From Pirellulaceae bacterium (lineage in GTDB: Bacteria > Planctomycetota > Planctomycetia > Pirellulales > Pirellulaceae), in assembly GCA_020852965.1 (NCBI GenBank), contig JADYZV010000075.1:62001-126000 (forward strand): DNA of 64,000 bases, given 5' to 3'. The position numbers were made by a program, and so were the translations under genes. Position 1 is the first letter of the stretch. Every line of letters begins with the position of its first letter. This document shows, piece by piece, positions 5,061 through 59,791 of this stretch. The notes under the pieces were generated by a model. The model ran no database searches. It was not told where the DNA came from and saw only the letters and a program-made list of their open reading frames with translations.

Positions 5061-5088
5061 GAATTGCAGTTCACGGCAATGATTGCCG

Positions 5089-42283: not shown

Positions 42284-45200
42284 ATGTCCCACCTAGTTGC
42301 ACGGCGCGAGCGTGCCAATCGCAGACAGGGGCGTCGCCACTCGTTCAAACGCAACCTGCTGGCGGAAACTCTAGAGGATCGACGACTCCTTACCGTCAGT
42401 TCCTTCTTCGAAAGTGGCACGCTACAGATCACGGCCGACGCGGCGGACGATATTGCAATCACTCAGGACTTCGGTCAGGTCAAAATCAATGGCTCCGATC
42501 CAGATTCGGGAGTGCTTTACGCTGAAGAGGTCGCAGCAATCGACATCGCGGCCATCGGCGATTTTCCGAATCGAATCGACCTCAGCAATATGGATCCCTA
42601 CGCATTTGGCGGGGTCAGCGAAATTGCGATGAAAGGGGGAGGCGGCGATGATGTGCTGATCGCTCCCGCAATCACTTCGATGCTATTCGGTGAAGCGGGT
42701 AATGACTTGCTCCAATGCGGTCCCGCAAATCACAACCTAGATGGCGGCGGAGGGGACGATGAGTTCATCGTCGACTTGACTGCCGGGACGCCCGCAGTTC
42801 CTAGCGGTATTCACGTTTCAGGTGGTGAGGGGGGGAACGATCTGCTGACCATGCTGGGAGGTGGCACTGGCGAGTTGGAGTACACACCGAGTGCCACGAC
42901 GTTCGGAAGCGGTGAAGTCAGCGGGTTCGTCGATAGCTTCTTTCTGTCATTCGAAGGTTTGGAGCCGGTCAATCTCCAAAGCTTCGGCAACATTACAATT
43001 GCGCTTCCGAACGCAGATGATCTGCTAACGTTAGCTAGTGCACTGTTTGGGGGGACGGAATATTTGGTCGTCAACGGAACTTCCGGCGGCGTCGCAGTGG
43101 AGGAACTAAGGGTTTCGCAGGCCGCTTCGCTCACGATTGACACCACCGCGAACAACTCGGACGGCAACGATAGGATCGACATCAACGGCGGCACAAGCGC
43201 GCACGGTATTGCAGATGTTGAAATCATCACCGGCACCGGTTCCGACATCATTTATGTCAACGGCACTCAGACGTTGAGCGGCACTCTAACCGTTAGCAGC
43301 CAGGGCGATGTGACGGGCAGCAGCTCCGCGAATCTCGATGCCAACGTGCATGTGGTCGGCGCGACGGTCGACCCAAGGGGTGGTGGTGCGGGCATTCTCG
43401 AAGTTGGCCCGATGAAGTTTGATGCGAATTCGACCTTCAAGGTCGAAGTCCATGGCACCACGCCTGGCACCGACCACGATCAACTCAGGGTTAATGGGAC
43501 GTTGGATCTCGGCGGCGCAACACTGAATGTGACAGGCTCGATTGGTGGAGCGTCTTCGGCCAATCCAATCGTACTGATCGATAACGATGGAACAGATGCC
43601 GTGACCGGGACCTTCGCTGGACTGCCAGGTGGCTCAACGGTCATCGTCAACGGACAGAACTTCGAAATCCAATACAACGGCGGCACGGGAAACGACGTCG
43701 TGCTGATGGCCATCGTTACCTCTGCACCGATGGACGTCTATGTCGACGATGATCTGCATGCCACGGCCAACGGTACGCCCATCGCGGACGCCAACCCGGA
43801 CGCTCCGGGCAATCAAAGCGGGACGTTTGGTATCGATGTGTTCGCAACGATTACAGAAGGTGTGGCTGCGGTTGCTGCCAACGGAACCGTGCACATTGTC
43901 GGTGGAACGTACGCGGAAGATGTCCACCTTGCCAAGCCGCTGACACTGGATGGCACCAGCCCCAACCGACGTGACGCAAGCATCGGTGGAGCGGGGATCT
44001 CGATCGAGGCGGGTGGCGACGGCGTCATCCTCCGCGACTTGCATATCGTCTCTGAACTGCAGGCACACTCCGTCGCGGCACCCACGCTCGAGAATGTATT
44101 CTCCAGTGGCGATGTCGGCTTCTTCGGAAGGAATTTGACCGGCGTACTGAGGGTTGAAAATTCACTATTTCAGGCCAATCAATTCACCCCCTTCGACATC
44201 GACTCGGGCGGGTTGCATATCGTTATCGAGAACTCCGCGTTTCAGGCGAACACTCTTGGCCCGATCTCTATCAATAACGTCGATTCATTGGAGCTTCGCA
44301 ACGTCACTTTTCGCGGCAACACGGTTGGCGTTATGCTGAGCTCTATCGGCACGTTGACTTATGATACGCAGCGCAGCGACATCAGTGATGAAATCACGTT
44401 TGACAGCAATGCGTTGACCCACCGCAGTAGCGGTGTCGACCGAGACCCGTTGGAACTGCTTAGCATTCAGAATCTGGTCATCAACACCTTCGGCGGCGAA
44501 GACCATGTCACGGGGCGAACCCACTTTGCCATGACAGCCACGATCGACACGGGAAATAACTTGACGGGCGACAGTGTCACGATCGAAGGATCTGCGATAA
44601 GCGATTCCTTTACGACAAGCATCAACGGCGGTGATACTGAAGTGCGCAACGGCACACAGGCGCCGGTGATTTTGCGCGGGATGGAGAGCTTGACACTGAA
44701 GGGGAGCGCAGGTGCAGATCGCTTTGATATTGCGCCGTCAAGAGACTACGCCATTATGGTCGATGGAGGCGAACCGATCGGGCAAAACGGAGAGCCAACC
44801 AGCTTTGATGTCTTGAACATAGTCGTGCAAGCTCAGCAATTCGCCTACTTAAATGGTCCCGAAAACGACGCGGGCAGTATCGTAGTCGACGACTACTTGC
44901 CCATCAGTTTCGACCAAGTCGAGTTGGCTGCGCTACAGGCCCTGCCCGCACCCGATGGCCTGCCGACGTTCAAGTCGTTTCCGCTACCGTTTGGCAACCC
45001 GAAAAGCAATCCGGTCGACGTCGCATCGAGCGGAGACGGCGAAGTCAAGGTTTCTCAGGGGAACTTCCAGCTTACGTTCTTAGAGTTGGAATCTGAAGAG
45101 CAGGTAATACTAGACCTTTCAGACAGTTCGGAAGACGTCCACTTCAATTTTGATGGCGAGCGGTTTGCACAGAATTTTTTCGTGCGCGGACGTGGTGACA

Positions 45201-48200
45201 ATGCGGTAATTTTGAATGGCGGTGATGGATTTGGCGAAACGACGCTCAATCTTCAAGACGACGGGACCGTGCAACTCACGATCAACCCGACGATCACATT
45301 GTCGGGGGTCAACGGACTGTTTGTTAACTCTACCGTTAAAGCAATCAACCTCGACGGCAGCGGTCTCAATGATCTATTTGTGATCGAAGACGCTTTCAAT
45401 GGTAATACTTCTGTCACTCTCTCACTGGCTCAATCACTATTCAGCTTCAAGACAGTTCTGCCAACCGCCGCAGAAAAACTGACCATCAACGGAGGTGGAG
45501 GTGATGACAGAGTTCGCTTGAATTCCGTGGGAAGTGCGTTTAAGGCTGCCCTAGCCGTCGATGGCGAGGCAGGTACGGATGTAATTCACGTTCCGAACAT
45601 GGTGGCCATTCCCAACGACGTTTCGCTCGTAGCCGATGTAATTGATGTGACCGGTGGAATCAATACTACTGGCGGTGGCGGATTAGCCGACATTCGGCTC
45701 AATGGCAACACCGTGAATATTCACAGTCTCACGGTTTCCGCAGCCGATGTGCGCTTGAATGCATCGGGAAATATACAAATCGACGGACCGATCTTGACGG
45801 GAGGAGGCCCAGTGGTTGTGCGAGCCGGTTTAGATGTTCGGTTTGGTCCGGCTGGATCCATCGACGCGCAGGTCGTGGGTGGCGCATCTTTGGTGGATAT
45901 CGAGGCTGGTATCTTTTCAGGAGTCTCGCAAAAGCTGAACCGTCCGCAAGTCGCCAATAGTAGTGTTGTGTGGCCAACGATTAGCCCTGATGGAAAGTGG
46001 GTAATTTATCTGGGCGACGAAGACGCAGATCAAGAGCAAGAGATGTACCGTGTGCCCATTGCAGGCGGAATCGCCACTCAAATTAGTGAGTTGCCCGACT
46101 TTGGCGTTTATGAGTCTTTTGCCATCAGCCCAGACAGTCAACGTATCGTCTATACGGCTGATCGGGAGGTTGACCAGAGAATCGAGCTGTACAGCATGTC
46201 GATCATGGGCGGGGCTGTCGCTAAATTGAGTGCAATGCCGGCCGCTGGCGACATCCGTTCATTTGCTATCAGTCCAGATGGTCAGTCAGTAGTTTTTGAG
46301 GCCGATCGGGATACAGATGACACCTATGAGCTGTACTCGGTTTCCATTGCTGGGGGAACTGTCACAAAACTCAGTTCAGTCCAAATGGTCGGCGACGTTT
46401 ATGACTTCTCTATTAGCCCCGACAGCCGACGAGTGATCTATCTAGCGGACAAGGATGTCGACAATCAATTTGACCTATACAGCGTTCCAATCACAGGCGG
46501 GGCAAGCATCAAGCTCAGTGCGTTGAGCGCTGGCGGCGACCTCGATATCAGCTCACTTGGTATCAGAAAGAGTTTCGCCATCAGCCCTGACAGCCTACGG
46601 GTTGTCTACGTGGCCGACCAGGATACGGATGAGACATTTGAGTTGTTCAGTGTCTCGATCATTGGTGGGGCCGTCGTCAAGCTCAGTTCCTTGCCGACAG
46701 ACGGCGATGTGTTTGAGTTTTCGATTTCTCCGGACAGTCAGCGCGTCGTCTATGTGGCAGATCAAGAGCTTGATGACGTTTTTCATCTATACAGTGTTCC
46801 ACTCGCGGGCGGAATTCCTCGCAAACTCGCCGCATTGCCGGCGCATGCGAATGTGCGTTCATTCACCATCAGCCTCGACAGTAAAGAGGTCGTTTATGCG
46901 GCCGATCAGCAGGTCGATGCTAAGTTCGAGTTATTCCGCGTGCCGATTCAGGGTGGAGATACAACTAAGCTAGTAGCGTTACCGGCACACGCGAATATCG
47001 AGCTATATTATCCTCGCATGTCGATCAGCCCCGACGGGAAATATATCGTTTTTGCGGCCGACAGGGACGTTGATGGGATGCTTGAACTGTATAGCGTGCC
47101 ACTCAGGGGTGGGGCGATCGTCAAACTCAATGCCGTGCTCCAACCGTTAGGTGGAGTCGGTTCCTATTCAATCAGCCCTGACAGCCAACATGTCATCTAC
47201 CTCGCTGACAAGGATATCGACGATAGGTTTGAACTATTCGCAACCACACTCCCCGGTCAAATTCGGATGGCCAGCGAGGCGAAGATCAACGCGCGCGGCG
47301 GCAACGTGCGACTCGCTACCAACGGCGACATTCTGGTTTCCAGCATTGTCACCACCGCCGACGTTAGCATCACTACGAGCCACGGAGCGATCATCGACTA
47401 CCGGACTGGGGAGCAGCCCAACATTGAGGCAAACTCGGTTGCCCTGCGGGCGAATTCGGGTATTGGGCACAACAATGACCTGGATCTGAGTGTTACTACT
47501 GTTGCGTTTCAGAATTCCGACTCAGGTGACGTGAATCTCACCAACTCCAGCTCGCTGACGATCGGTGGCGTCGGGGCACTGTCCGCTTCACGCAATTTGA
47601 ACGGTCACGTTAGGCTTGATGCACTGGGTTCGATTTCAATCGAACATAACCTAGGAGCCAACAGCTTGATGGTCTCATCCATCGAGAACCCGAATTCCTC
47701 ACAAGACAACGTTGTCGTTCGTGCGGGTGTTGCGATTACAGCTACATCAATGGTCCGCTTGAATGCGGGTGACGATGTCGTGATTGAAGATAGGGCTGCC
47801 ATTCAAGGCGATGAGATAACTTTGTCGTCCGGCGAACACAATCAAGATTTACTGGGTGGCATTACCATTGAGGGAAGTATCGATGCTACTGGAGGAGCGA
47901 CTGGATCGGTGACACTCCTTCCAGAAGCGGGTGTTAAGGAGACAAGCACTGGGAGAATTCTCGCTCCGGAACTAATATTACGCGGTGCAGGCGGATTTGA
48001 TCTAAGGGATGGAACGAACGACGCCGGCCACCTATCTGGGATTTTGAGGGGCGACGTCATTTATGCTGATGTCGACGGGGTGGGGATCGGGGGATTGCAG
48101 GCCTTTGGTTCAGATCTGACTGTGATTGCCGATCAGATTGCGATCGACGGCATCCTCGAACTTCGATCGGGTTCTCTGGCTTTGAACGCAACGGTCAACG

Positions 48201-51200
48201 GCGTCAGCCAAAATTCAGGTGCAGCTATCTATGCCGATCGACTGTTCGTACAGGGACAAGGCTTCTTCAATCTCAATGCGCAAGACAACCACATCAATAT
48301 TATCGGCGGCTCGGTCGATTCGATCTCGTTGACGGACCGGGACGGCGTCACGGTTGGTTCCGTTTCGGCCCCTGCATTGAACAGCACATTTGGTGGCCTA
48401 TTCGCGACCAACGGCATCGCTGTTTTCGCTCCACAGGTTCGTCTCAGTACGATCCTGGATAGCACAACGGGCCTGGTAAGTGTAAACGCCATCCGATCGG
48501 ATGGCAGCGATGGAACATTTGAGATCATCGGGACCGCCACAGAGATTAATGCCGGTTCCGTGCAGATCACCAATGCTCGATTGTCAGCCGATCAGCTCGG
48601 GCGTAGTCTTTCGATCGACACCAGTTCGGTCACAGCGGGTGGCGACATCGTGCTGCCTGAATTTGATGCGACACGGCCGCTGCTCAATCGACTGTTCATC
48701 GATGCTAGCGGTGGGAGTAGTGATGGAATAATCCATTTTGTGAATGGCGCTTTCCTAGCGAACAGTGGAGCAAGCAACTCCGCCGACCTGACCATCCGTG
48801 GAGATGTCGAACTTCTCCAGTCGATTGTGTTTGACACATCGTCTGCTTTCGGATTTGGCGGAGCCATCGATCTTAGGGAAACAAACGTCTATGCTCGAAA
48901 CGTTGGAGCTAGTCTGACAATCGATGCACGTGCCAAAGGCGCCATCATCGGCTCGCTGGGAACGGGCGGAGCAATTCAACTTGGCCGGTTCAGCGCTTCA
49001 GGAGGTAGATTGGAGATTGAAAACCTCAACGTGTTTACCACCGGTGGGCTTGGCGATGGGACAATAGTCGTCAACCACGATGTCCTGGTGGATGGAAATA
49101 TCACATTCGCAGGCGTCATCGAACTCCCCCGAACGACGACGCTTTCGACCAGCACTAGCGTTGGTGACGCTGGAGATATCTATCTGTCAGACACCCGAAT
49201 TCGTCAGTTTCCTCATGCATTGCCCAACCTGAATATCGAGGCGACATATGTTGGGAGCTCGACTCGAAATAACTCGGGAGGGAACGTAACTCTAGGCGCC
49301 CTGTCTGGACTGGATGAAGTCGCAATCAACACGACCAGCACTAGCGGTCCTGGTGGAAACGTCCTCGCTGTGGATAAGGTTCAAGTCGAGAAGCTTTACA
49401 TTGCGGGAAGTCGCGGTTCAACGTTAGACGCTAGTACCGTGAAATTCATCGACTCTCTTTCAGTTGGAGTTGGAGGTCTCAATATACACGGTTTTGACGA
49501 AGTCAACCTTTCAACGGTCAGCTCCGTCGGGGACGTTGAGTTGAGTTCATTCCAGTCGACAAGACTCATCAACGGTATCTATACACAGGGTGGGGACATC
49601 GTTATCGAAGGATCACTATTACCCACTGGTGCGGGCGGGTCTGTGCGACATCCGGTGGTACTCGACACACGGTTAGACAACATTGGCGATGCGGGAAGCG
49701 TTCGGCTCCACGGTGGAGAGGTTTATGGTTTTTGGCCAGGAGAACACCTGCGGATTGTCACCTCCACAGCGGGTGTCGGAGGATCCGTCGTGCTCGACTC
49801 AGAATTTACCAACGCTCCACACTTGGTATCAGTTGGCGGTTTGACGGTTGACACGTCGGGCTCGACCGACGGTGTGATTTCACTTGGAAAGGATGTCAAG
49901 CTTGGTGACAACTTGGGAACCTCTCCAGGAGCGAATTGGGCAAGCCCATACCTATCGCTCACGGGAGAAGTACAGCTCACCGATGACATTCTGCTCGACC
50001 TGTCGGATACCAACGCGCCTGGTGGAATCGTTGATCTCAGTCTGGCTTCGTTCTCCTCCAATGGAACTCCCCAACGCAACTTGTCGATTGATGCACGGCA
50101 TACCGGCAATTCCACTTTCGGCAGTGGCGGCCAAGTACGGCTGGGCGAGTTTCTCGATCCGTCGGCTCATGCAGCCGTCGGCCGGCTGACCATCGATGTT
50201 TCAACTAGCTCCACCACTAGAGCGGGAGGTCAAGTTTCTTCCGGTGGAACAATACAACTGGCCGATGGCTTGAGTATCATCGCCCATGGTGGCTTGCTGA
50301 CAGCACCATCTCAGGTCTTGCTTAACGATGACATGCTTGTCAGCGGGACCGGAGGAGTCGATGTTCGCGCCGATGTTGTGAAGCTTAAATCCGGACAGTC
50401 AATCCTCAGCGCTGGCACCGTGGTTATCACCGCCAATCAAAAGCTCGATTTGGACGGATTCGTCAATGCTACTTTCAATGGCGCGGTCGGGCGAGACGTC
50501 CGTCTTAGCTCCAATCGGATCGAACTTTCCAACGACATTGTAACTAAGGGGGGTAGCGTCGGTCAGTTCGTTGCCGGCGACATCCTACTCAATGGCAACG
50601 TGGTCATTGACGGACCGAGTGTCCTGCTTTCAACCGACGCGGGAGGCCTCGGGGGTGCTGGTGCTGTACGATTCACCAGTGGCACTATCTCCGCAGATCA
50701 AGCTGGGCGAAAGTTGACCATCAATACGAAATCCGCCAATGTCAACGCGAACGGAGGTGACGTGCAATTGACTCCCGTCACGAATACGGCTGGCGGAGCA
50801 TTCTTGCAAAGCCTTGTTGTCGATACCTCGGGTATGGGAACGGGAATGCGCGGAGTGATAACACCCGACGATATCGCGCTCAGGGGTGATGTCCTTGGTA
50901 ATCCGTCGTCACTCACACTCTCGGGTGACGTGCGCTTGGCGAAGGCTGTTAGCTTCACGACAACCGATGCGACCAATAGTGGTGGGAATATCGATCTGCG
51001 GAATGCCGAGTTTTCCGCTACGCTCCCAATCGTTGGTTTGAGGATCGACAGTCGTTACACAGGCGCAGATGCAAGGGATGGAGGGAGCGTTTCCTTGGGA
51101 GAATTCAGCGATCGGGGTGGACACTACGTGACTGAGTTGCGAGTCGACAGCCATTCATCCGGCTCCGGCAACCACGGCGTCACCGACTTTACCAAGCAGG

Positions 51201-54200
51201 CCATTCTGAGCGGCAGCTTGAGCGCGAACGGCCCCGTGGTTGTGAATGCAGCGGCCCCCGCCGTCGTATTGGCTTATAACCAACAAGACTATCGTGGTTC
51301 CGTGACCATCGGTGCTGCGAATGCCCATTTAGTCGCAGGTGATATTCGGTTCTTCGACACGGTCAACCTGCAAAGGAATGCATTGAAAGTTACCGTGTCT
51401 GGCGCAAACAGTGAAGCTCGCAGTGCGATTGGCGGAACAGGCGACTTTATCAAGAGTGGAGTTGGCGCGTTGACTCTCTTGAACGCTAGTTCGCAGATCG
51501 GCCACACAACGATCGAGGACGGCCTGCTGAATATTGGGACGGTCGTTGCTCCAGCCGAACTGATATCGAACGTTGCGATAGCGGGCGGCACGTTGGGAGG
51601 CGACGGCACGCTTCGTGGTTCGGTGATCATGAGCGCGACCGGTGGCGCAGTCTCCCCCGGTTCGTCGCCTGGCTTGCTTGAAATTGACAATGACCTTGTA
51701 TTTAATGCCGCCGGAAGTTTTGAAGTGGAACTAGATGGATCCGGTGATCGGCTGCGAGTTTCTGGCAGCCATCGGATCGTCGACTTGGCCAACGCGGCTC
51801 TAAATGTATCATTTACGACGAAGCCTGCAGTCGGTCGCAAATTTACATTGATTGATAACGTCGATGTTCAGACCTCAGTCATTGGCATGTTTTCTAGCCT
51901 CCCCAATCGAGCCGCTGTGACCAACGGAAGCTTTCGCGGGCGGATTGACTACTTTGGGGGTGATGGCAATGACGTTGTCTTGGAAGTTCTACCGTATGTC
52001 CCCGTGGCGTCGGTGTCAGTCGATAGCAGTACCATTACGTTGGGAAGTGTTAGCGATCTTGCGGGGACGACGTCCAGTGGTAGCGGGCACTTCACCCTGC
52101 ATGCCGGCGACGATGGCCGGATTCGAATCTCACAGCCTGGCAGCTTTTTCAACGTCGGGGGAACGTTGCATCAATCCGAGTCCATCGAGATTCCCTTGTT
52201 GGGAGGTGAGACATTCAACCTGGTTGCCGGTGCGGGAGCAACTCAGTTGCTATTAGACCTTAGCGGAAATGAATATGGCCTTCGCTTCGACGCCGACACT
52301 CTCTCAGGCATGATCGAGGGAGTCAACTTCCACATATCGGGTTTTCAAGGACTACAAGTGATTGGCGACGGCAACGACAACGTCTCCTTCGCATGGCCAA
52401 CTAACGCGAACTCGCCGATTCATGTTTCCGGCTCCGCCGACGGCGGCGATTGGGTTTCACGATCGGGCGATTGGGATCGTGCCGGTAACTGGGGTATTGT
52501 AACCTCCGGGCTGAGTAGCTTGACGATCGAGAGCACGGGAGGAAGTGGTGAAGTCATTTTCGATGCGACTTCACTCAACGGAGCCAACGACTACACGGCG
52601 AATTTGCAGGATACGGACGTAGCACGAATCGAAGGTAGCAATGCACTCGGCGACAATTTTGTAATCAGTCGCTACGGCAATGCGTGGCATCCGGTGGGAG
52701 CGGAGCTGAAACAAGGCGGAGCCAATGTGCGAATCGCTGGTGCCGGTCGGTTGGAAGTTCGCTTGGGCGGCGGTGACGATACGCTCACGATCGATGTCGA
52801 TCAGACGCGCGGCTCGGATGTGATCTCAATACCTATCCTCTTTGACGGTGGCGAAGGTGGCTTGGATACGCTCGAACTGGTGGGCAATCCAGCCACGACT
52901 GTCGAAAGCACGACCTATCGCCCTGGGCCCGATACACACAATGGTCGCCTCGAGTTTGCAGACGCAGCCCAACAGAGGTTGATGCAAGTGGAATTTTCAG
53001 GGCTCGAACCGATACGCAATAGCGTGTCTAGTAGCTTTCATAACGTCTACGGCTCAGGTCTCACCGAGAACATTGTTTACGATACGGTGTACCAAGTCCC
53101 GGCACTATTTGCCTCCAGCAAATTGTTCGGGCGCGTGTCGATCGATGACAAGGAATCCTATTCCTTCCAACTGGAGAATGTCTCGGTGGCACCTACGTTA
53201 CTGCTCTACGGTGAAGGTGGTCGCGATCGGTTCGATGTGGAATTGCCCTATCGGCAAGCTATCGACGCTCTCAGAGCGATCTCAGTGATAGGCGGAGTGG
53301 ACGCGCTTGGTGATCGACGGGAGCAGACCGAGTTAATACTACGAGGCTCAAGAAACGACGAGAATTTTGAATTCGAAGCTGCGTCCGGTAGCCTGCCTTA
53401 CACTCGTCTCTACGTGTCGCAGGCTGGATCGTCCAGTCGCGTGAAAATCGAGACCAGCGCTATCGCAGACATTCTGCTACCAGAATCTGGAGGGGCTGAC
53501 AGTCTGACAATCACAGGGTCGGATAGCGCGGAACGACTGCACTTCGAACCGTCACTGGGCAGCTCTGAGTTTGCTCTGCCGTTCCCCGCGTATAGGTATG
53601 ATGTCTCCTACTTCGAAGCAGACCCCGCTTTTCCGCTTGGTGGTAATACTCTCACTGCTTATGCAGTAAAGACCCTCAGCGCGGATCTCGGCAATGGATT
53701 CGATGCGGTCGTTGTTAAAGGGACGGACCTCAACGACGACATTCGATTGACAGCTACTTCGGCCGTAGTTCGACTAGGCGATTCCGTTGCACTTGGTAAC
53801 CATGAATCGATTCGAGTCGAATCGCTCGGTGGAGACGACCGTATTGAGATGCTTAGTCCAATACTCATTGACGTACTTATCGATGCAGGCGTTGGAGATG
53901 ACGATCAACTTACTGTGATGGGTCCTGCCTCCAGCGCGACATTCACACCGTTCGAAGAGCCACGGTCTGGAAGGCTTGTGACTCAGCGACACGGGGATCG
54001 CCAAACGGTGGATTACAGCGGCGTCGAAACGCTGGCCGCGTTTCTCGACCAGTGGGACACCGCCGTCTACGTTGGTGCGGACAACGGCGACAATGATATT
54101 ACTGTCAGTCACCCAGGTAATCCGTTCATCAATATCGATGATCGTACAGAAATTCAACTATACGAACTCGGCTCCGACGCTTCCATCAGGGTCTCTGGGT

Positions 54201-57200
54201 TGAAGGGTGCCGATCGTTTTGCAACAACACTGGCCGATTGGGATATTTACCTGGACTCAGGAGGCTCGGACGCGGACGACGTTGTTACGTTCTACGGAAA
54301 CGATGTTCACTACAGACCAGATGCACTTTTTAGTAACGGTCGAGCTGAGCTATCGCTGATCGATTTCGATGAGATCATCGTCGAAGTAGAGTCGCTATTG
54401 GCTGCCAGCGATGAAAGCATTCCGTCGTTCCAGTACCGTACGGCCGGCAGCGATGATCCTCAGGCAAAAGCCGTGGCGTTTGTTGTTCCTAGCGACGATG
54501 TGCCGATACCACTCGTTCGTATACTCGGTGCGGATCGTGAAACAACCTTGAGTGAAGCGGAATTTCCATCCGATTCCAACGGTGGAGTAGCCTTCTTGGC
54601 GAGCGACCGTCCAGCTCAAGACAACCTCTACTTCGAAGTTGCCAGCTCCGATGGACAAGCGGTGCCAGCCTTTGATTTATTCGCGGCAGTGATAGAACCG
54701 GGAGAGTTTGTTGACATCCCCAGTGGCGGACAAATCGCGGTACAAATCGACCATAACCATCGAGTCGCAGGGCGGGGAACTGTTCCGTTTGGTGGTAACG
54801 ACTTGATATCCGTGCAGATTGATCACAACCACCGCATCGCAGCCGTAGTCAACAACGATCCGGCAAACCGTGGTAGTCGAGCACATTCGGTGCTTGAAAT
54901 TCTGGACGCAACCGGCGAACACGTTTTGGCTAGCGGCAGCAATATCGCGGGAGCAATCGGAAACGGTGTTGTGACGCATCCGCTCCCAGCGGGGATGTAT
55001 CTGGTGCGAATTGCAAACAATAATTCGGATGGTGAAGGTAACTACGAACTGGTCCTCTTCGATGTGAACGATGATAACGCGGTCACGAGTGATAGTGGGG
55101 CGTTCCCGATCAATGCTAGCTTGGAACCGGGGGAACATGGACGGGGTTCCATCCCGGCGACTCCTGGCATCGACGACGTTGTTTCACTCACGCCTCTGGG
55201 CAACGGGCGGTCCACTCTTCAATTCAACCAATCCACACCGCTCAGTTTGCGCAACGTCACCAGTGTGGAACTAGATGCTCGCGGGGGGGACGATCTACTG
55301 CGCATGCAGGGGAGTGCGAATTCAGATTCTGTTTTCCTAACCGCCAACGATTTGTTGATGAACAACCAGTCGTTCCTGCATCAAAACTTTGAGTCATTCG
55401 AACTGCAAACCGGCGCGGGCGATGACGCTGTCGGAGTCCTTCAGTCACTTGAGGTCGCCGGATATTTGAAATTCGATGGTGGCGATGGAATAGACCGCCT
55501 AGCCATGCAGCTTGATGGACCCAGCGCCCAGCTAATGTTACCCGCGGTCATTCAGGACTCACGCCTAGTGACAAGTGTCGCCGTCGAGAGATTTTCACTA
55601 CACGGTTCTGTCGATGAAATTGGAAATGGAACCAATATTGTCGTGACCGGTATTGCCGATGCGACCGGTTCCGTGACTGTGGCGCCGCAGACGGTCGATC
55701 GCGTCGATATCAGCAGCGGCAGTTTCAATGCTGACCTCACGACGACTGGTCGCGTTACCATTTCTTCGGCCACTCCGCTACTCGGTTCGACGCTGCCGAT
55801 TCGCCAGGTCGAGGTTGTCGGCACGGTGTTTGACGACACCATCCATGTTACCGAAAGCAAAGTCAATTTTGATGGTGTTTTAAAGACGGTCGGCTTACTG
55901 AACATCCCATCCGTCGCGGTAGATGGCGCAGCGGGACAAGATCGGTTTTTTGTCATTCCATCGCCAACTACGGCTTTCCATATCGACGGTGGAAACCCGA
56001 TCGGATTTGGCGATCGCCTGGAAATACAGACTTCATCCAGTGCGACATTTTTTCCTGGACCAGAAAACGATGAGGGCGCATATGTTGCCCCTGGTTTGAA
56101 ACCTGTTTCCTTCGATCATATCGAAGAGCACGCCGTTGTGGCCGGCTTGACGGATTTATTGGTTCAACTGCTGCCTGATCAGCGAGTGAACGTGCGGATC
56201 AGCGGAGGTGACATCGAAGTGGTTGATGCCGATAGTGCCGCTATTCTCGCGCTCCATCCTCTCGATCAATTCAACTCACTCAAGCTTGTGGGAACGGCCG
56301 GCGACGAAGAAGTTACCGTTGATTTTTCGACAGGCTTCTTTGCACTACCCAGCGGAATAGACTTTGATGGAGGCGCTGGTGACCACGATCGCTTGGCTGT
56401 GATCGGTACGGGTGATACTCAAGCCGACTACTCGATGATCGTCAATCCTGTTGGTTCAACACAACTACAACTATCCGACAACGGCCATCTGAGCAGACTG
56501 CGCTACCGGGAGGCCGAAGATCTAAATTTCGTGGGACTAACTACTTTTGCGGCCCACAGTCTCCTCAGTGTCGGAAGTGGAAGCCTCTCGCTGGGTACTT
56601 CAGCACCTGTCAGGCTCGCACCATTCACGACCATCGCCGGCGGAAGTCTCAGCTCGATCAGCACGCTTGTGCTCGGCACAGGCGCTACGCTGCAAGGCTA
56701 CGGAGCTATTAACGCTCCACTGGCGGGAGAGGTTGGGTCGTTGATTCGCGCCACTGGGAATCTGACGATTGGCCAAGCATCCTCGCCGATTGGGTTCGCG
56801 ACCCTCGGAGAGCTATCGATTGGTGGCAATTCAGTCGAACTCCTCGACGCGAATCAAGCCGTGCTGGGTTCATTGACATCGCTGGGGGATGCGGGCGCAC
56901 CAGGCACAGTTGTCTCCGCAGGCGGATTGCTCATCGATTACGGTCACAACGTGATCGGCTATGGCGTCCTAGACACCACCCACGCGCCAGCGACTCTACT
57001 GATGAATAATGGCGCTATTGATGGCAACAGTGCAGCCGAGCAAATTACATTGACTGGCTATGTGAAAGGTGTCGGAACGCTCGACAACGTGGAGTTGACT
57101 GGCACGTATAGCCCCGGTTTTAGTCCAGCAGTCCTGTACCACGGCAGCGTCAATTATGGAGCCGTGGGTACGACGATCATTGAGCTCGGAGGAACGGTCC

Positions 57201-58009
57201 CAGGAAGCAGTGGTTTCGATCAACTAAACCACTCAGGTGTGGCCACTCTGGGAGGAGAGCTAGTCGTTCAGCTCACCGACGACTATTCTCCCCACGTTGG
57301 TGATTCGTTCTTAATCATCACAGCCAGCGAAGGAGTGACTGGAGTATTTGACAAGGTGTCGCTCCCGACAGCACCCTTGGGGAGCGATTGGGAATTGGTA
57401 GTTGAGCCACATGCAGTGCGCATCGAACTGGTGGACCTGGCGAACATTGCCAACGTTCGATTTGGTGATGGTAGTCAACAGCGATCGCGTATCGAAAAGA
57501 TTGAAGTCACTTTCGAAGGACAAGTCGACATCGACTCGGAGGCGTTTGCGCTGATCAAGCGAGGTGCTGACGGCGGCGTTGTAGAGACGAGCTTCACCAC
57601 GCGGCTAGAAGGTAGCGACACCGTAGCCACGCTTCGTTTTAGTGGGCTCTATGCGCGGGGGCTAGATAACTTGCTAGCCGATGGCAACTATCAATTCACG
57701 GTCCATGGCAGCGGTATTCGACGCGCGGGGACAAGCCTCGCGCTGGATGGCGACAACGATGGTTTGGCTGGCGGCGAGCGTCTGATCGGCGCGAGTGAGG
57801 CCGACGAGTTCTATGCCTACTACGGAGACGTACGAGGTACGCGCGCCGTCGGTACGTTCGAATTCAATGAGTTTCGCAAAACATACCGTAAGCAACTCGG
57901 AGAGTTTGGATATAACCCGCTATTTGATGTCAATGGAGATTCCGCAATTGGCTTACTCGAATTCAATCACTTTCGCCGCAATTTTGGCAAACTTTTGGAG
58001 TGGGAATAG
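42284..58009 (+). CDS. Giant 5241-aa secreted repeat protein with dockerin-like C-terminus
   Basis: The N-terminus is strongly basic with an LEPR-XLL-like motif (LAETLEDRRLL, 26-36). RTX-like glycine/aspartate repeats (GGGGDDVLIA, GEAGNDLLQCG) lie near 115-165. A pectate-lyase-like beta-helix with VYVDDDLHATANG spans about 484-690. Nine PD40 repeats (ISPDSQRVVYVAD) lie at about 1226-1660. Long filamentous-haemagglutinin-like beta repeats (GNVTLG, LTIDTSG) follow to about 2990, then an autotransporter-associated strand module (GVGALTLLN, VSPGSSPGLLEID; about 2993-3160) and further repeated beta modules. The end (about 5175-5241) is a double EF-hand/dockerin-like module: a degenerate YGDVRGTRAVGTFEFNEFR and a canonical DVNGDSAIGLLEF. 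No catalytic site is seen. It is presumably a cell-surface or matrix protein. AAGGAG lies upstream; the next gene is 54 bp away. Confidence 0.9.
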   Translation: MSHLVARRERANRRQGRRHSFKRNLLAETLEDRRLLTVSSFFESGTLQITADAADDIAITQDFGQVKINGSDPDSGVLYAEEVAAIDIAAIGDFPNRIDLSNMDPYAFGGVSEIAMKGGGGDDVLIAPAITSMLFGEAGNDLLQCGPANHNLDGGGGDDEFIVDLTAGTPAVPSGIHVSGGEGGNDLLTMLGGGTGELEYTPSATTFGSGEVSGFVDSFFLSFEGLEPVNLQSFGNITIALPNADDLLTLASALFGGTEYLVVNGTSGGVAVEELRVSQAASLTIDTTANNSDGNDRIDINGGTSAHGIADVEIITGTGSDIIYVNGTQTLSGTLTVSSQGDVTGSSSANLDANVHVVGATVDPRGGGAGILEVGPMKFDANSTFKVEVHGTTPGTDHDQLRVNGTLDLGGATLNVTGSIGGASSANPIVLIDNDGTDAVTGTFAGLPGGSTVIVNGQNFEIQYNGGTGNDVVLMAIVTSAPMDVYVDDDLHATANGTPIADANPDAPGNQSGTFGIDVFATITEGVAAVAANGTVHIVGGTYAEDVHLAKPLTLDGTSPNRRDASIGGAGISIEAGGDGVILRDLHIVSELQAHSVAAPTLENVFSSGDVGFFGRNLTGVLRVENSLFQANQFTPFDIDSGGLHIVIENSAFQANTLGPISINNVDSLELRNVTFRGNTVGVMLSSIGTLTYDTQRSDISDEITFDSNALTHRSSGVDRDPLELLSIQNLVINTFGGEDHVTGRTHFAMTATIDTGNNLTGDSVTIEGSAISDSFTTSINGGDTEVRNGTQAPVILRGMESLTLKGSAGADRFDIAPSRDYAIMVDGGEPIGQNGEPTSFDVLNIVVQAQQFAYLNGPENDAGSIVVDDYLPISFDQVELAALQALPAPDGLPTFKSFPLPFGNPKSNPVDVASSGDGEVKVSQGNFQLTFLELESEEQVILDLSDSSEDVHFNFDGERFAQNFFVRGRGDNAVILNGGDGFGETTLNLQDDGTVQLTINPTITLSGVNGLFVNSTVKAINLDGSGLNDLFVIEDAFNGNTSVTLSLAQSLFSFKTVLPTAAEKLTINGGGGDDRVRLNSVGSAFKAALAVDGEAGTDVIHVPNMVAIPNDVSLVADVIDVTGGINTTGGGGLADIRLNGNTVNIHSLTVSAADVRLNASGNIQIDGPILTGGGPVVVRAGLDVRFGPAGSIDAQVVGGASLVDIEAGIFSGVSQKLNRPQVANSSVVWPTISPDGKWVIYLGDEDADQEQEMYRVPIAGGIATQISELPDFGVYESFAISPDSQRIVYTADREVDQRIELYSMSIMGGAVAKLSAMPAAGDIRSFAISPDGQSVVFEADRDTDDTYELYSVSIAGGTVTKLSSVQMVGDVYDFSISPDSRRVIYLADKDVDNQFDLYSVPITGGASIKLSALSAGGDLDISSLGIRKSFAISPDSLRVVYVADQDTDETFELFSVSIIGGAVVKLSSLPTDGDVFEFSISPDSQRVVYVADQELDDVFHLYSVPLAGGIPRKLAALPAHANVRSFTISLDSKEVVYAADQQVDAKFELFRVPIQGGDTTKLVALPAHANIELYYPRMSISPDGKYIVFAADRDVDGMLELYSVPLRGGAIVKLNAVLQPLGGVGSYSISPDSQHVIYLADKDIDDRFELFATTLPGQIRMASEAKINARGGNVRLATNGDILVSSIVTTADVSITTSHGAIIDYRTGEQPNIEANSVALRANSGIGHNNDLDLSVTTVAFQNSDSGDVNLTNSSSLTIGGVGALSASRNLNGHVRLDALGSISIEHNLGANSLMVSSIENPNSSQDNVVVRAGVAITATSMVRLNAGDDVVIEDRAAIQGDEITLSSGEHNQDLLGGITIEGSIDATGGATGSVTLLPEAGVKETSTGRILAPELILRGAGGFDLRDGTNDAGHLSGILRGDVIYADVDGVGIGGLQAFGSDLTVIADQIAIDGILELRSGSLALNATVNGVSQNSGAAIYADRLFVQGQGFFNLNAQDNHINIIGGSVDSISLTDRDGVTVGSVSAPALNSTFGGLFATNGIAVFAPQVRLSTILDSTTGLVSVNAIRSDGSDGTFEIIGTATEINAGSVQITNARLSADQLGRSLSIDTSSVTAGGDIVLPEFDATRPLLNRLFIDASGGSSDGIIHFVNGAFLANSGASNSADLTIRGDVELLQSIVFDTSSAFGFGGAIDLRETNVYARNVGASLTIDARAKGAIIGSLGTGGAIQLGRFSASGGRLEIENLNVFTTGGLGDGTIVVNHDVLVDGNITFAGVIELPRTTTLSTSTSVGDAGDIYLSDTRIRQFPHALPNLNIEATYVGSSTRNNSGGNVTLGALSGLDEVAINTTSTSGPGGNVLAVDKVQVEKLYIAGSRGSTLDASTVKFIDSLSVGVGGLNIHGFDEVNLSTVSSVGDVELSSFQSTRLINGIYTQGGDIVIEGSLLPTGAGGSVRHPVVLDTRLDNIGDAGSVRLHGGEVYGFWPGEHLRIVTSTAGVGGSVVLDSEFTNAPHLVSVGGLTVDTSGSTDGVISLGKDVKLGDNLGTSPGANWASPYLSLTGEVQLTDDILLDLSDTNAPGGIVDLSLASFSSNGTPQRNLSIDARHTGNSTFGSGGQVRLGEFLDPSAHAAVGRLTIDVSTSSTTRAGGQVSSGGTIQLADGLSIIAHGGLLTAPSQVLLNDDMLVSGTGGVDVRADVVKLKSGQSILSAGTVVITANQKLDLDGFVNATFNGAVGRDVRLSSNRIELSNDIVTKGGSVGQFVAGDILLNGNVVIDGPSVLLSTDAGGLGGAGAVRFTSGTISADQAGRKLTINTKSANVNANGGDVQLTPVTNTAGGAFLQSLVVDTSGMGTGMRGVITPDDIALRGDVLGNPSSLTLSGDVRLAKAVSFTTTDATNSGGNIDLRNAEFSATLPIVGLRIDSRYTGADARDGGSVSLGEFSDRGGHYVTELRVDSHSSGSGNHGVTDFTKQAILSGSLSANGPVVVNAAAPAVVLAYNQQDYRGSVTIGAANAHLVAGDIRFFDTVNLQRNALKVTVSGANSEARSAIGGTGDFIKSGVGALTLLNASSQIGHTTIEDGLLNIGTVVAPAELISNVAIAGGTLGGDGTLRGSVIMSATGGAVSPGSSPGLLEIDNDLVFNAAGSFEVELDGSGDRLRVSGSHRIVDLANAALNVSFTTKPAVGRKFTLIDNVDVQTSVIGMFSSLPNRAAVTNGSFRGRIDYFGGDGNDVVLEVLPYVPVASVSVDSSTITLGSVSDLAGTTSSGSGHFTLHAGDDGRIRISQPGSFFNVGGTLHQSESIEIPLLGGETFNLVAGAGATQLLLDLSGNEYGLRFDADTLSGMIEGVNFHISGFQGLQVIGDGNDNVSFAWPTNANSPIHVSGSADGGDWVSRSGDWDRAGNWGIVTSGLSSLTIESTGGSGEVIFDATSLNGANDYTANLQDTDVARIEGSNALGDNFVISRYGNAWHPVGAELKQGGANVRIAGAGRLEVRLGGGDDTLTIDVDQTRGSDVISIPILFDGGEGGLDTLELVGNPATTVESTTYRPGPDTHNGRLEFADAAQQRLMQVEFSGLEPIRNSVSSSFHNVYGSGLTENIVYDTVYQVPALFASSKLFGRVSIDDKESYSFQLENVSVAPTLLLYGEGGRDRFDVELPYRQAIDALRAISVIGGVDALGDRREQTELILRGSRNDENFEFEAASGSLPYTRLYVSQAGSSSRVKIETSAIADILLPESGGADSLTITGSDSAERLHFEPSLGSSEFALPFPAYRYDVSYFEADPAFPLGGNTLTAYAVKTLSADLGNGFDAVVVKGTDLNDDIRLTATSAVVRLGDSVALGNHESIRVESLGGDDRIEMLSPILIDVLIDAGVGDDDQLTVMGPASSATFTPFEEPRSGRLVTQRHGDRQTVDYSGVETLAAFLDQWDTAVYVGADNGDNDITVSHPGNPFINIDDRTEIQLYELGSDASIRVSGLKGADRFATTLADWDIYLDSGGSDADDVVTFYGNDVHYRPDALFSNGRAELSLIDFDEIIVEVESLLAASDESIPSFQYRTAGSDDPQAKAVAFVVPSDDVPIPLVRILGADRETTLSEAEFPSDSNGGVAFLASDRPAQDNLYFEVASSDGQAVPAFDLFAAVIEPGEFVDIPSGGQIAVQIDHNHRVAGRGTVPFGGNDLISVQIDHNHRIAAVVNNDPANRGSRAHSVLEILDATGEHVLASGSNIAGAIGNGVVTHPLPAGMYLVRIANNNSDGEGNYELVLFDVNDDNAVTSDSGAFPINASLEPGEHGRGSIPATPGIDDVVSLTPLGNGRSTLQFNQSTPLSLRNVTSVELDARGGDDLLRMQGSANSDSVFLTANDLLMNNQSFLHQNFESFELQTGAGDDAVGVLQSLEVAGYLKFDGGDGIDRLAMQLDGPSAQLMLPAVIQDSRLVTSVAVERFSLHGSVDEIGNGTNIVVTGIADATGSVTVAPQTVDRVDISSGSFNADLTTTGRVTISSATPLLGSTLPIRQVEVVGTVFDDTIHVTESKVNFDGVLKTVGLLNIPSVAVDGAAGQDRFFVIPSPTTAFHIDGGNPIGFGDRLEIQTSSSATFFPGPENDEGAYVAPGLKPVSFDHIEEHAVVAGLTDLLVQLLPDQRVNVRISGGDIEVVDADSAAILALHPLDQFNSLKLVGTAGDEEVTVDFSTGFFALPSGIDFDGGAGDHDRLAVIGTGDTQADYSMIVNPVGSTQLQLSDNGHLSRLRYREAEDLNFVGLTTFAAHSLLSVGSGSLSLGTSAPVRLAPFTTIAGGSLSSISTLVLGTGATLQGYGAINAPLAGEVGSLIRATGNLTIGQASSPIGFATLGELSIGGNSVELLDANQAVLGSLTSLGDAGAPGTVVSAGGLLIDYGHNVIGYGVLDTTHAPATLLMNNGAIDGNSAAEQITLTGYVKGVGTLDNVELTGTYSPGFSPAVLYHGSVNYGAVGTTIIELGGTVPGSSGFDQLNHSGVATLGGELVVQLTDDYSPHVGDSFLIITASEGVTGVFDKVSLPTAPLGSDWELVVEPHAVRIELVDLANIANVRFGDGSQQRSRIEKIEVTFEGQVDIDSEAFALIKRGADGGVVETSFTTRLEGSDTVATLRFSGLYARGLDNLLADGNYQFTVHGSGIRRAGTSLALDGDNDGLAGGERLIGASEADEFYAYYGDVRGTRAVGTFEFNEFRKTYRKQLGEFGYNPLFDVNGDSAIGLLEFNHFRRNFGKLLEWE
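45979..47256 (+). repeat. Nine-unit PD40/TolB-like coding repeat block in the giant gene
   Basis: Nine units of about 45-50 residues carry the pattern SFAISPDSQRVVY, ADQDTDETFELYSV and GGAVVKLSSLP. They are more diverged than the seven-unit block at 10947-12179 and use a different consensus. The block sits between IEAGIFSGVSQKL and GQIRMASEAKINARGG, that is, within beta-helix-type repeats that look continuous if the block is removed. Confidence 0.8.
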
Positions 58010-58063
58010 ACCTGCTACCTCGCTATCACCCCGACGGACTCTCCCTATTCATTGGAACCAGTA

Positions 58064-58711
58064 ATGTCTAGCCGATTTAGTATTTGCCTTGCTGTCTTGC
58101 TGTTTGTGCCATCCCTGGCTCATGCAGACATTGTCTTTTTCGTAGACCTGAACATGGACCAAGTTGGTATTCAGCAGAGTATGGTAGGCAATGCAGATGA
58201 CGTTTTGACAGCTACCATTGTATTGCAATTGACGGACGCTGCGACGTCTCTTTCGAGCTACGGGATCACTTTGGAGTACGACCCAAATGAATTAAGTTTC
58301 TTGCTCTCAGGGAGCGTCGAGACTCCGCCGACCGGCCTCCAGTCATTGGTCACCTTGAAGGATAGTGCAGTCGTAGGCACAATTTCCGGCATAGAGGCAG
58401 GGACATTTGACTCGGGTCCGGCAGGTCCCGCGATATTCAACATTGCAACCATCCATTTTCGCGTGCTGACACCGCTGGGGAATGCACAAGATATCGATCT
58501 GAGACTCTTCGAAGCCCCTCCATTTGATGGATTGTTTGACAATGAAGGAAAGCAACTTGTCCCATCGTTCTTCGGAGCTAGCGTCGTGACTTCTGTCCCC
58601 GAGCCTTTACCATTACCCCTGGTCGGTCTTTCATTGATGGCACTCATTCTTTATCGTGGGTCACTCCGTCGACAGAGTGCTTTGGGATTGGCTAAGCAGT
58701 GTGGAGCATAG
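58064..58711 (+). CDS. PEP-CTERM protein with cohesin-like domain
   Basis: This 215-aa secreted protein has a signal peptide of about 20 residues (FSICLAVLLFVPSLAHA). The body has cohesin-like features: LTDAATSLSSYGITLEYDP near 60-80, NELSFLLSG, and FNIATIHFRVLTPLGNAQDI near 127-146. The C-terminus is a typical PEP-CTERM sorting tag: VPEP, a hydrophobic helix (LVGLSLMALIL) and a basic cluster (YRGSLRRQ). PEP-CTERM proteins are processed by an exosortase, which is not encoded in this window. The ATG 58064 is preferred to a TTG at 58052. It follows the giant gene by 54 bp on the same strand, so co-transcription is likely. The giant ends in a dockerin-like module, which makes a cohesin-dockerin partnership a concrete hypothesis. 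Confidence 0.8.
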   Translation: MSSRFSICLAVLLFVPSLAHADIVFFVDLNMDQVGIQQSMVGNADDVLTATIVLQLTDAATSLSSYGITLEYDPNELSFLLSGSVETPPTGLQSLVTLKDSAVVGTISGIEAGTFDSGPAGPAIFNIATIHFRVLTPLGNAQDIDLRLFEAPPFDGLFDNEGKQLVPSFFGASVVTSVPEPLPLPLVGLSLMALILYRGSLRRQSALGLAKQCGA

Positions 58712-58867
58712 TTGTCGCCGATTAAACGGTTACTAGAAAGAGTTCGGACAGAATCAGTTACGTGACCAATCCACTGGCGTTTCGAGCTCATAAAGCAAAT
58801 TGGGGAACTTGCTGGATAAGCTCATCGCCTAACAAGACGAAATCTATCCTTCCAAGCTACTTCACCT

Positions 58868-59791
58868 ATGAAACCGCTAATTGATTCCGATGTCTCGTCA
58901 GCTCTTTGCGAACTGATCGACCCGAGTATAGAAATATTGCAGGTTCGACCGATCGGTGGCGGCTGCATCAGCAATGCCATGCAAATTACGCTGAGGTCGG
59001 ACCGGCTAGGGCGTCGTACCTGGTTCGCCAAATCGAACGCGCCCAGTTTTCTAACCAATTTTCAATCCGAACGGGACGGATTGATTGCTCTGGCAACAGC
59101 CGAATCCATTTCGGTCCCCAAGCCGATTGCGGTGGGCTCGGTTGCCGAACGATCGTGGCTGATCACCGAGTGGGTGGAAACTCAGCCTCAAGTTGAAGGC
59201 TTCTTTGACGAATTTGGTCGACAATTGGCGGAGCTGCACCGCGTGACCTCCGGCAACCGCATCGGTTGGTCCCACGACAATTACCTAGGTGCCGCGATCC
59301 AGCCGAACTCGCCAACTGACACTTGGGTCGAATTTGTAGCTCAAAATCGCATTGGCTACCAGCTTCGTTGGGCCATCGACCAACAGCGAGTTGACGCCAA
59401 GTTGCGTCGTCAATGCGAAGCAATTGTGGCGGCGATGCCCGAACTGCTGGCCGGTCGCGTGGACGAGACGTCGTTGTTGCACGGTGATCTGTGGAGCGGT
59501 AATTATCTTTTTGGTACCGTGCATGAGAACATTGCAGGCGTGCCCGTGATCATCGACCCTGCGGTTTACAATGGTTGCCGCGAAGCGGAATTTGGAATGC
59601 TGAAGCTGTTTGGCTCCTGCCCGCCCGTGTTTTATGATGCCTACCAAAACACGTGGCCGCTGGCCGATGGGTGGCAACGTCGCACTAATGTCTATGTGCT
59701 CTATCATCTGCTGAACCATCTGAACATGTTCGGCAGCGGCTATCTCGACCAATGCCACCGCGTCGCAGGTGAAATTCTGCTTGCGAAGTAG
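58868..59791 (+). CDS. Fructosamine kinase family protein
   Basis: This 307-aa kinase belongs to the fructosamine/ketosamine-3-kinase family of the aminoglycoside-phosphotransferase fold. Early residues show IGGGCISNAMQI (nucleotide loop), then WFAKSNAP with the ATP-binding Lys. The central ITEWVE is the hinge. Catalytic HGDLWSGNYLF starts at His205 and the metal-binding IDPAVYNGCREAEFGM follows. This enzyme type repairs glycated amines or proteins by phosphorylating the sugar moiety, and it is cytoplasmic. Length matches the family. No Shine-Dalgarno is obvious before ATG 58868. The gene stands alone; the neighbours give no pathway clue. Confidence 0.92.
   Translation: MKPLIDSDVSSALCELIDPSIEILQVRPIGGGCISNAMQITLRSDRLGRRTWFAKSNAPSFLTNFQSERDGLIALATAESISVPKPIAVGSVAERSWLITEWVETQPQVEGFFDEFGRQLAELHRVTSGNRIGWSHDNYLGAAIQPNSPTDTWVEFVAQNRIGYQLRWAIDQQRVDAKLRRQCEAIVAAMPELLAGRVDETSLLHGDLWSGNYLFGTVHENIAGVPVIIDPAVYNGCREAEFGMLKLFGSCPPVFYDAYQNTWPLADGWQRRTNVYVLYHLLNHLNMFGSGYLDQCHRVAGEILLAK

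Follow-up and report, generated by a model that had tools for sequence, protein, structure and literature searches.

A giant planctomycete protein and its small PEP-CTERM neighbour as a candidate exchangeable dockerin-cohesin cassette

We analysed a stretch of 64,000 nucleotides from a Pirellulaceae bacterium (contig JADYZV010000075.1, positions 62,001 to 126,000 of the forward strand; called the window for simplicity), in which the gene for a giant secreted protein of 5,241 amino acids with a dockerin module at its C-terminus (42284..58009, + strand, from the open reading frame) is followed by a small gene for a partner protein of 215 amino acids with a signal peptide, a cohesin-like domain and a PEP-CTERM-type tail (58064..58711, + strand, from sequence and model). 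We consider it probable that the two genes form an exchangeable lock-and-key cassette that tethers the giant to an exosortase-processed anchor, the small protein serving as its dedicated surface socket. An earlier note, made from the sequence alone, had proposed a dockerin-cohesin surface pair at this place, and this core idea is largely supported. Beyond it, comparison of homologous loci indicates a whole family of such pairs, with many specificities, whose two members are exchanged together between close relatives. Genomes, contigs and loci are named below, where necessary, by our own handles (G, C and L numbers), genera by g numbers.

The conserved C-terminal module of the giant comprises an immunoglobulin-like (Ig-like) domain (residues ~5054-5180, 57443..57823, + strand, delimited by the strands of an AlphaFold2 model) and, directly after it, a dockerin-like tandem EF-hand module (residues 5181-5241, 57824..58006, + strand). 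The last residues of the giant read ...YGDVRGTRAVGTFEFNEFRKTYRKQLGEFGYNPLFDVNGDSAIGLLEFNHFRRNFGKLLEWE. The AlphaFold2 model of its final 201 residues (predicted local distance difference test, pLDDT, 95.9; predicted template modelling score, pTM, 0.88) showed the Ig-like domain followed by two loop-helix units, which is the layout of a dockerin (helices at residues 151-160 and 184-193 of the module). The first loop (DVRGTRAVGTFE, 57827..57862, + strand) has lost its ligands at positions 3, 5 and 9, and the second (DVNGDSAIGLLE, 57926..57961, + strand) has kept D1/N3/D5/E12. Measured against a type I dockerin, with calcium ligands in both loops, loop 2 has them and loop 1 does not. The degenerate-then-canonical tandem EF-hand end that the earlier note had read from the letters was thus recovered, as were its coordinates and features of both genes. 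The module of the window itself matched no Pfam family at E 0.1 and no dockerin at E 1; among 33 aligned modules, 26 matched Dockerin_1 (PF00404, best 6e-11) and 9 matched Big_5, an Ig-like domain. When the model of the Ig-like domain and dockerin was searched with Foldseek, the X-dockerin chains 3kcp, 4wi0 and 4u3s were among the weak matches, with 3kcp reaching only E 8.4e-3 and antibody domains scoring similarly.

The ATG of the partner gene lies at 58064, 54 bp past the stop of the giant (an alternative TTG start at 58052 would yield 219 amino acids), and the sequence bears out a secreted PEP-CTERM protein at this position. Its signal peptide (residues 1-21, 58064..58126, + strand) ends between ...AHA and D at a cleavage site picked by script, as for the other partners. 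It is followed by the cohesin-like beta-sandwich domain (residues 22-176, 58127..58591, + strand, delimited by AlphaFold2, Foldseek and the class C profile described below) and by the tail (58592..58708, + strand), which reads VPEPLPLPLVGLSLMALILYRGSLRR and consists of VPEP, a hydrophobic helix and a basic end. Signal peptide, PEP motif, hydrophobic stretch and basic end are, by reading, those of an exosortase substrate, and a custom pattern found such a tail in only one of the 45 stop-to-stop frames of at least 150 amino acids in the window, namely in the partner. The Pfam model of the tail (PF07589) matched 21 of 28 aligned partners, not including that of the window, for which NCBIfam gave PEP-CTERM matches below cut-off only. 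The genome encodes exosortase, with three matches over the PF09721 cut-off (best 3.8e-29). Two of these lie close together on opposite strands (G000:C117:4266-7218) and the third on C155. Neither promoter- nor terminator-like sites were found in 57700-58950 (chance expectation 1.3 and 1.0). This would fit co-transcription of the two genes but proves nothing.

Pfam and NCBIfam called neither a dockerin nor a cohesin on the two proteins of the window, and because the family models are silent on this pair the identification rests on relatives and folds. The AlphaFold2 model of the mature partner domain, built with 27 partner proteins from other loci that are 10-22% identical to it, was of modest quality (pLDDT 63.4, pTM 0.56). 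In its Foldseek search against the PDB, every rank from 1 to 22 nevertheless went to a chain from a cohesin or cohesin-scaffoldin entry (query TM 0.50-0.66; best E 2.5e-4 with probability 1.00; ranks 11 and 14 are multimodular chains), so that the cohesin-like body proposed in the earlier note is supported by structure prediction, on a model of pLDDT 63. A profile of the window partner and five relatives (class C; profile A5) retrieved eight PDB chains with E values up to 10. By name or entry title, seven of them are scaffoldin or cohesin chains; of these seven only 4ums was significant (E 7.5e-4), the others lying at 0.11-0.36. Searches with the single protein, by phmmer against the PDB and by a scan of the genome-contig collection, returned nothing and no relative, respectively. 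The comparison of A5 with the general partner profile A4 (probability 97.5) was not used since it is circular, the window protein and one relative being in both. Model and profile together make a cohesin fold likely for the window partner and its class C relatives. For class A, another of the three partner classes (A, B and C, assigned by hand), cohesin membership is probable.

The gene pair recurs in other planctomycetes. Our first search found the module in 21 of 98 genomes, with 49 matches, of which 47 were readable (for the other two, both on G013:C18, the fetched DNA contained no stop codon). At 34 of the 47 a same-strand gene lies within ~300 bp downstream whose product is exported and bears a PEP-CTERM-type tail, and at a 35th the downstream gene is cut by the contig end and matches the partner profile. 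In this count a pattern match at G073:C367, a 398-aa dockerin protein, was dropped, G012:C399, with a tail truncated at the contig end, was included on inspection, and G005:C485 was added via the partner profile. Conversely, at E 1e-5 profile A4 gave 32 matches across the 98 genomes. Its own rows make up 28 of these, and 29 of the 32 sit just downstream of a module. The remaining three are a gene that directly precedes a long exported-type frame running off the contig, one at a contig edge and one cut by a transposase; clear free-standing members were not found at this threshold in these genomes. The genome of the window (8.37 Mb) has three copies of the module (C75, C9 and C1; E 1e-8), all with a PEP-tailed gene just downstream, and a fourth, weak module match on C122 (E 0.076). 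Because all three modules are paired while PF07589 finds 14 PEP-CTERM tails in the genome, a count that misses the tails of the window and of copy C1, the pairing exceeds chance. The complete genome G255 has 38 modules, and each of its four partner matches lies next to one. The class C profile found 15 places in 241 genomes at E 1e-4 (up to 15 candidates scored per genome): 10 just downstream of a module (six of them own rows, two tandem copies in G152), two just upstream of a dockerin gene (G138/G139), and three weaker ones with no module within 1.5 kb on either side. At one locus in G152 (L232/L239, C448) a single giant is followed by two tandem class C partner genes.

The dockerin co-varies with its partner, and, judging from the alignments, the two are replaced in one block between close relatives. 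The congeneric genomes G025 and G125 share an orthologous 12.5-kb region with a DNA identity of ~93%, mostly 87-97% in 150-nt steps. In the deepest of three dips, which spans the dockerin, the intergenic gap and the body of the partner, identity drops to 33-50%; it rises again at the PEP-CTERM tail. At the protein level the Ig-like domains are 97%, the EF-hands 49% and the partners 39% identical, while a control pair from the same two genomes gave 95%, 98% and 96%. The two shallower dips at this locus (L223) lie inside the giant (59-69% at G025:C1:6162445-6163040) and around 6157050 (59-72% at 6156900-6157195, with 59% near 6157050). Genus g45 (G205, G206, G207 and G208; L251-L254) has orthologous giants with open frames of 4,631-4,729 codons. 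Identity among them is 69-97% over the last 200 columns of the alignment ahead of the dockerin and 43-60% over the dockerin columns. In six out of six comparisons DNA similarity stopped 177-287 nt before the stop of the giant. Where enough DNA was available downstream (G205, G206 and G208), it resumed at 79-81% in the next gene, with no blastn match in between. The unmatched block extends past the partner gene by ~50 nt (G208) to 880 nt (G205). This one locus holds all three partner classes, C in G205, B in G206 and G207, and A in G208. The middle of the g45 giants comes in two types (G205/G208 and G206/G207), mostly 15-40% identical between types and ~80-97% within, so the stalk appears to have been swapped independently of the cassette.

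Dockerin code and partner type were compared in 61 pairs, reduced to 55 by removal of six near-duplicates; L233 and L235 were lost to the module pattern, L118 is truncated, L232 is the second tandem partner of one giant, and a few mature starts (G012:C399, L161, L169) retain some signal-peptide residues. In 31 of the 55 cases the partner at the locus closest in the EF-hands was among the three nearest; for the locus closest in the Ig-like domain this was so in 16 cases, with ~3 expected at random; for the very nearest partner the counts were 19 and 14. In permutation statistics, which do not model phylogeny, partner distance correlated with both the EF-hands (rank Mantel 0.208, 2/5000 permutations) and the Ig-like domain (0.153, 3/5000). 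Some of the signal is thus due to shared inheritance, given the correlation seen for the Ig-like domain as well. The partial Mantel value of the EF-hands was 0.164 (9/5000), rising to 0.286 (0/5000) without class B (n = 46); on these sequence comparisons, the EF-hands add information on partner type beyond shared inheritance. For the window pair, the EF-nearest locus is in another genus (G203) and its partner ranks first of 54, while the partner of the Ig-nearest locus (G012:C485, same genus) ranks 19. The two repeats within a dockerin agreed at 60% of seven code positions, compared to 15% between dockerins (n = 61; 0/5000), the positions having been chosen by the analyst and at least two repeats misplaced by the script. 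Loop 1 of the window reads DVRGTRAVG, and DxRGxRAVG is shared by loci in two other genera, one in G203 (arginine-bearing in both loops) and one in G152 (loop 1), both of which carry class C partners.

The wider search covered 241 genomes of the family, of which 72 had a match at E 1e-20 (up to 13 candidates scored per genome), and 99 further loci, taken from the best matches and thus not a random sample, were examined. A candidate partner was present at 35 of them, and after reading, 23 were counted as adjacent partners. Six chance frames (L126, L135, L136, L173, L182, L197), one fragment (L134) and three PEP-CTERM proteins unlike classes A-C (L178, L184, L201) were not counted, nor were the cohesin-like genes at L170 and L212, which lie >800 bp away. 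HMMER default filters hid some partners (L133, L195); without these filters, and with profiles from which the sequences under test had been removed, L133 fell in class A (27.7 bits) and L130 and L167 in class B (64.3 and 56.1 bits). Two ARRANGEMENTS were seen in the wider search, the loci with an adjacent partner and a second pattern. Outside genus g36 and genomes G172/G195, an adjacent partner was found at 18 of 24 sampled modules. In g36 (G250-G261, e.g. L137-L160) it was found at 4 of 61, and a single dockerin code, GQDY, accounts for 51 of the 61; the codes at the four partnered modules of G255 are not GQDY. The three GQDY-coded giants at L178, L184 and L201 are directly followed by the PEP-CTERM proteins unlike classes A-C mentioned above. 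All 14 modules sampled in G172/G195 are DLL-coded and one has an adjacent partner. In the complete genome G172 there are 15 modules and two free-standing partner genes. On inspection these two belong to the subtype of the adjacent partner in G195, a pattern as expected if many giants share one socket. In g36, G252 has one free-standing partner candidate. Two giants ~5 kb apart (L164 and L144, G241:C6:269924-275308) have one code, GSDFL, and a single adjacent partner, possibly another shared socket.

The giants themselves vary from locus to locus. The LEDRRLL N-terminus of the giant in the window is of the planctomycete extracellular type, and Planc_extracel (PF07595) matched weakly, below cut-off (E 0.0062). 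The Pfam matches over cut-off are propeller types, with PD40/TolB-type WD40-like repeats at 45284-48283 (residues 1001-2000; PF07676, E 6.7e-31). Peptidase_M28 stayed under its cut-off (E 0.071), and none of the glycoside hydrolase families in Pfam matched the giant (enzymes were not searched genome-wide). In the fetched stretches only the last ~630 residues align with the giants at G224:C3 (43%) and G012:C485 (38%), and the alignment with G203 is confined to the module. An autotransporter passenger-type repeat (PATR) at 51446-51535 is below cut-off. Very long open frames were also seen on the other strand of the window, at 9123-17192 (-, 2,689 amino acids) and 17335-21093 (-, 1,252 amino acids).

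Taken together, two genes head to tail and 54 bp apart encode proteins that both look exported from their sequences, one ending in a predicted Ig-like domain and dockerin, the other a cohesin-like domain with a PEP-CTERM-type tail. From the models and sequences, the cohesin-like domain of the partner would grip the dockerin; exosortase would process the tail and fix the small protein to the envelope; and the giant would thus be held non-covalently at the surface through its C-terminus. With one dockerin code per partner type, several giants could be displayed in one cell without cross-docking; alternatively, giants sharing a code could share one socket. Dependence of the dockerin on its socket predicts the joint exchange of plug and socket.

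Several observations weigh against this reading. Pfam cohesin (PF00963) matched none of the 28 partners or the six class C members, and confidence in the partner model is modest (pLDDT 63). No similarity of class B partners to cohesins, or to the other two classes, could be detected, the matches of the class A profile in the PDB are not cohesins, and the clean comparison of class A with class C (profiles A7 and A5) was weak (probability 22, 35 columns). No adjacent partner was found at 12 of the 47 modules of the first search, and none of class A-C at the 51 GQDY modules of g36. G253, with 26 modules, has no A4 match at E 0.1, and no socket for the GQDY code was found in the genomes searched. 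The Ig-like domain retained a partial Mantel value of 0.083 after removal of the EF effect (153/5000), and of 0.143 (13/5000) without class B. Giants are mosaics generally, other blocks varying too, and many of the genomes are fragmented. Calcium-mediated pairing, as put forward in the earlier note, is doubtful for this copy and its subtype, since the ligands are lost in loop 1 here and the closest relative, G203, has arginine-bearing loops with the calcium ligands lost in both.

Some of these points would equally suit an independent PEP-CTERM matrix protein that is merely co-inherited with the 3' end of the giant, the two being neighbours in a recombination hot spot. The correlation of the Ig-like domain with the partner, the class B partners not recognisable as cohesins, the further variable blocks (two more G025/G125 dips and the two-type middle of the g45 giants), the continuation of the g45 unmatched block beyond the partner gene (~50 to 880 nt) and the three GQDY giants that precede other PEP-CTERM proteins all fit it. 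Such hitch-hiking would, however, leave unexplained why the partner domain resembles cohesin, the known dockerin receptor, why the correlation is stronger for the EF-hands than for the Ig-like domain, which lies just as near, why the replaced block leaves out the Ig-like domain and, in G025/G125, also the PEP-CTERM tail, and why matching code residues are maintained in both repeats. We regard it as unlikely. Still less probable is that the small protein is a secretion cap or chaperone that binds the dockerin during export only, the mature giant then docking on other cohesins or surfaces. Close spacing and one partner per giant suit a cognate chaperone, but exosortase processing of PEP-CTERM tails serves retention, so the tail implies a retained protein rather than a soluble helper, and profile A4 at E 1e-5 finds only the three adjacent genes in the genome of the window.

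A cellulosome or 'planctosome'-like scaffold, whose cohesin would gather enzymes for polymer degradation, appears very improbable here, in spite of the cohesin and dockerin modules of freshwater Planctomycetes and the peptidase complex proposed for them in the accessible text of PMC6461901. The partner proteins are short, with room for one domain only, and the giant matches propellers over cut-off and no glycoside hydrolase. Both the cellulosome and the peptidase 'planctosome' were rejected, as neither enzymes nor a scaffoldin were seen; a multi-cohesin scaffoldin with dockerin-bearing enzymes is not present at the pair and was not searched for genome-wide.

Under the preferred reading of a tethering cassette, adjacent cognate pairs with dozens of natural specificities would offer a testable answer to how planctomycetes hold giant proteins, and a source of candidate orthogonal protein pairs. 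By analogy, replacement of plug and socket in one block points to selection for changing specificity, which is the behaviour of recognition and conflict systems. We tentatively entertain, as a possibility on the doubtful side, a polymorphic recombining specificity cassette in which matching giants and sockets alone would join, possibly also between cells, as a kin- or strain-specific adhesion code assembled from an exosortase anchor and cohesin-dockerin parts. The pairs also bear on why, according to the accessible part of PMC11573180, the proportion of Dockerin_1 is higher in huge proteins of Planctomycetota; that part names neither a receptor nor a neighbour gene.

Among known systems, the partner's tail and the exosortase in the genome resemble the PEP-CTERM/exosortase sorting system. 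Cohesin, dockerin and exosortase are reportedly all mentioned in a study of methanotrophic archaea (PMC5244752), and our literature search, with subscription papers outside its reach, found no paper that combines PEP-CTERM with either cohesin or dockerin. Planctomycetes are known to have cohesin and dockerin modules of a non-cellulosomal kind, and the text available to us of the 'planctosome' hypothesis (PMC6461901) describes a lamin-tail anchor and peptidases in freshwater lineages, with no description there of PEP-CTERM anchors, adjacent giant-partner pairs or cassette exchange; dockerins are increased in kelp planctomycetes, as far as the accessible text of PMC5264255 goes. The joint replacement of adjacent cognate parts between conserved flanks recalls polymorphic toxin-immunity cassettes and recognition loci, the parts here being the plug and socket of a surface protein; no toxin was seen, and none was looked for. 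Closest are the cellulosomal cohesin-dockerin pairs of Clostridium and Acetivibrio (OlpA, ScaB, X-dockerin dyads), with which the present pair shares a two-repeat symmetric dockerin and a cohesin-like beta-sandwich. An Ig-like module also precedes the dockerin here, with weak Foldseek matches to X-dockerins and similar scores for antibody domains. In systems of the OlpA and ScaB type it is the cohesin side, as proposed here, that does the surface anchoring. In contrast to them, anchoring here would rely on a PEP-CTERM-type tail and not on SLH or sortase anchors, no multi-cohesin scaffoldin or enzymes were seen, and each giant has one socket encoded by the adjacent gene, with a degenerate first loop, many codes and exchange of the whole cassette.

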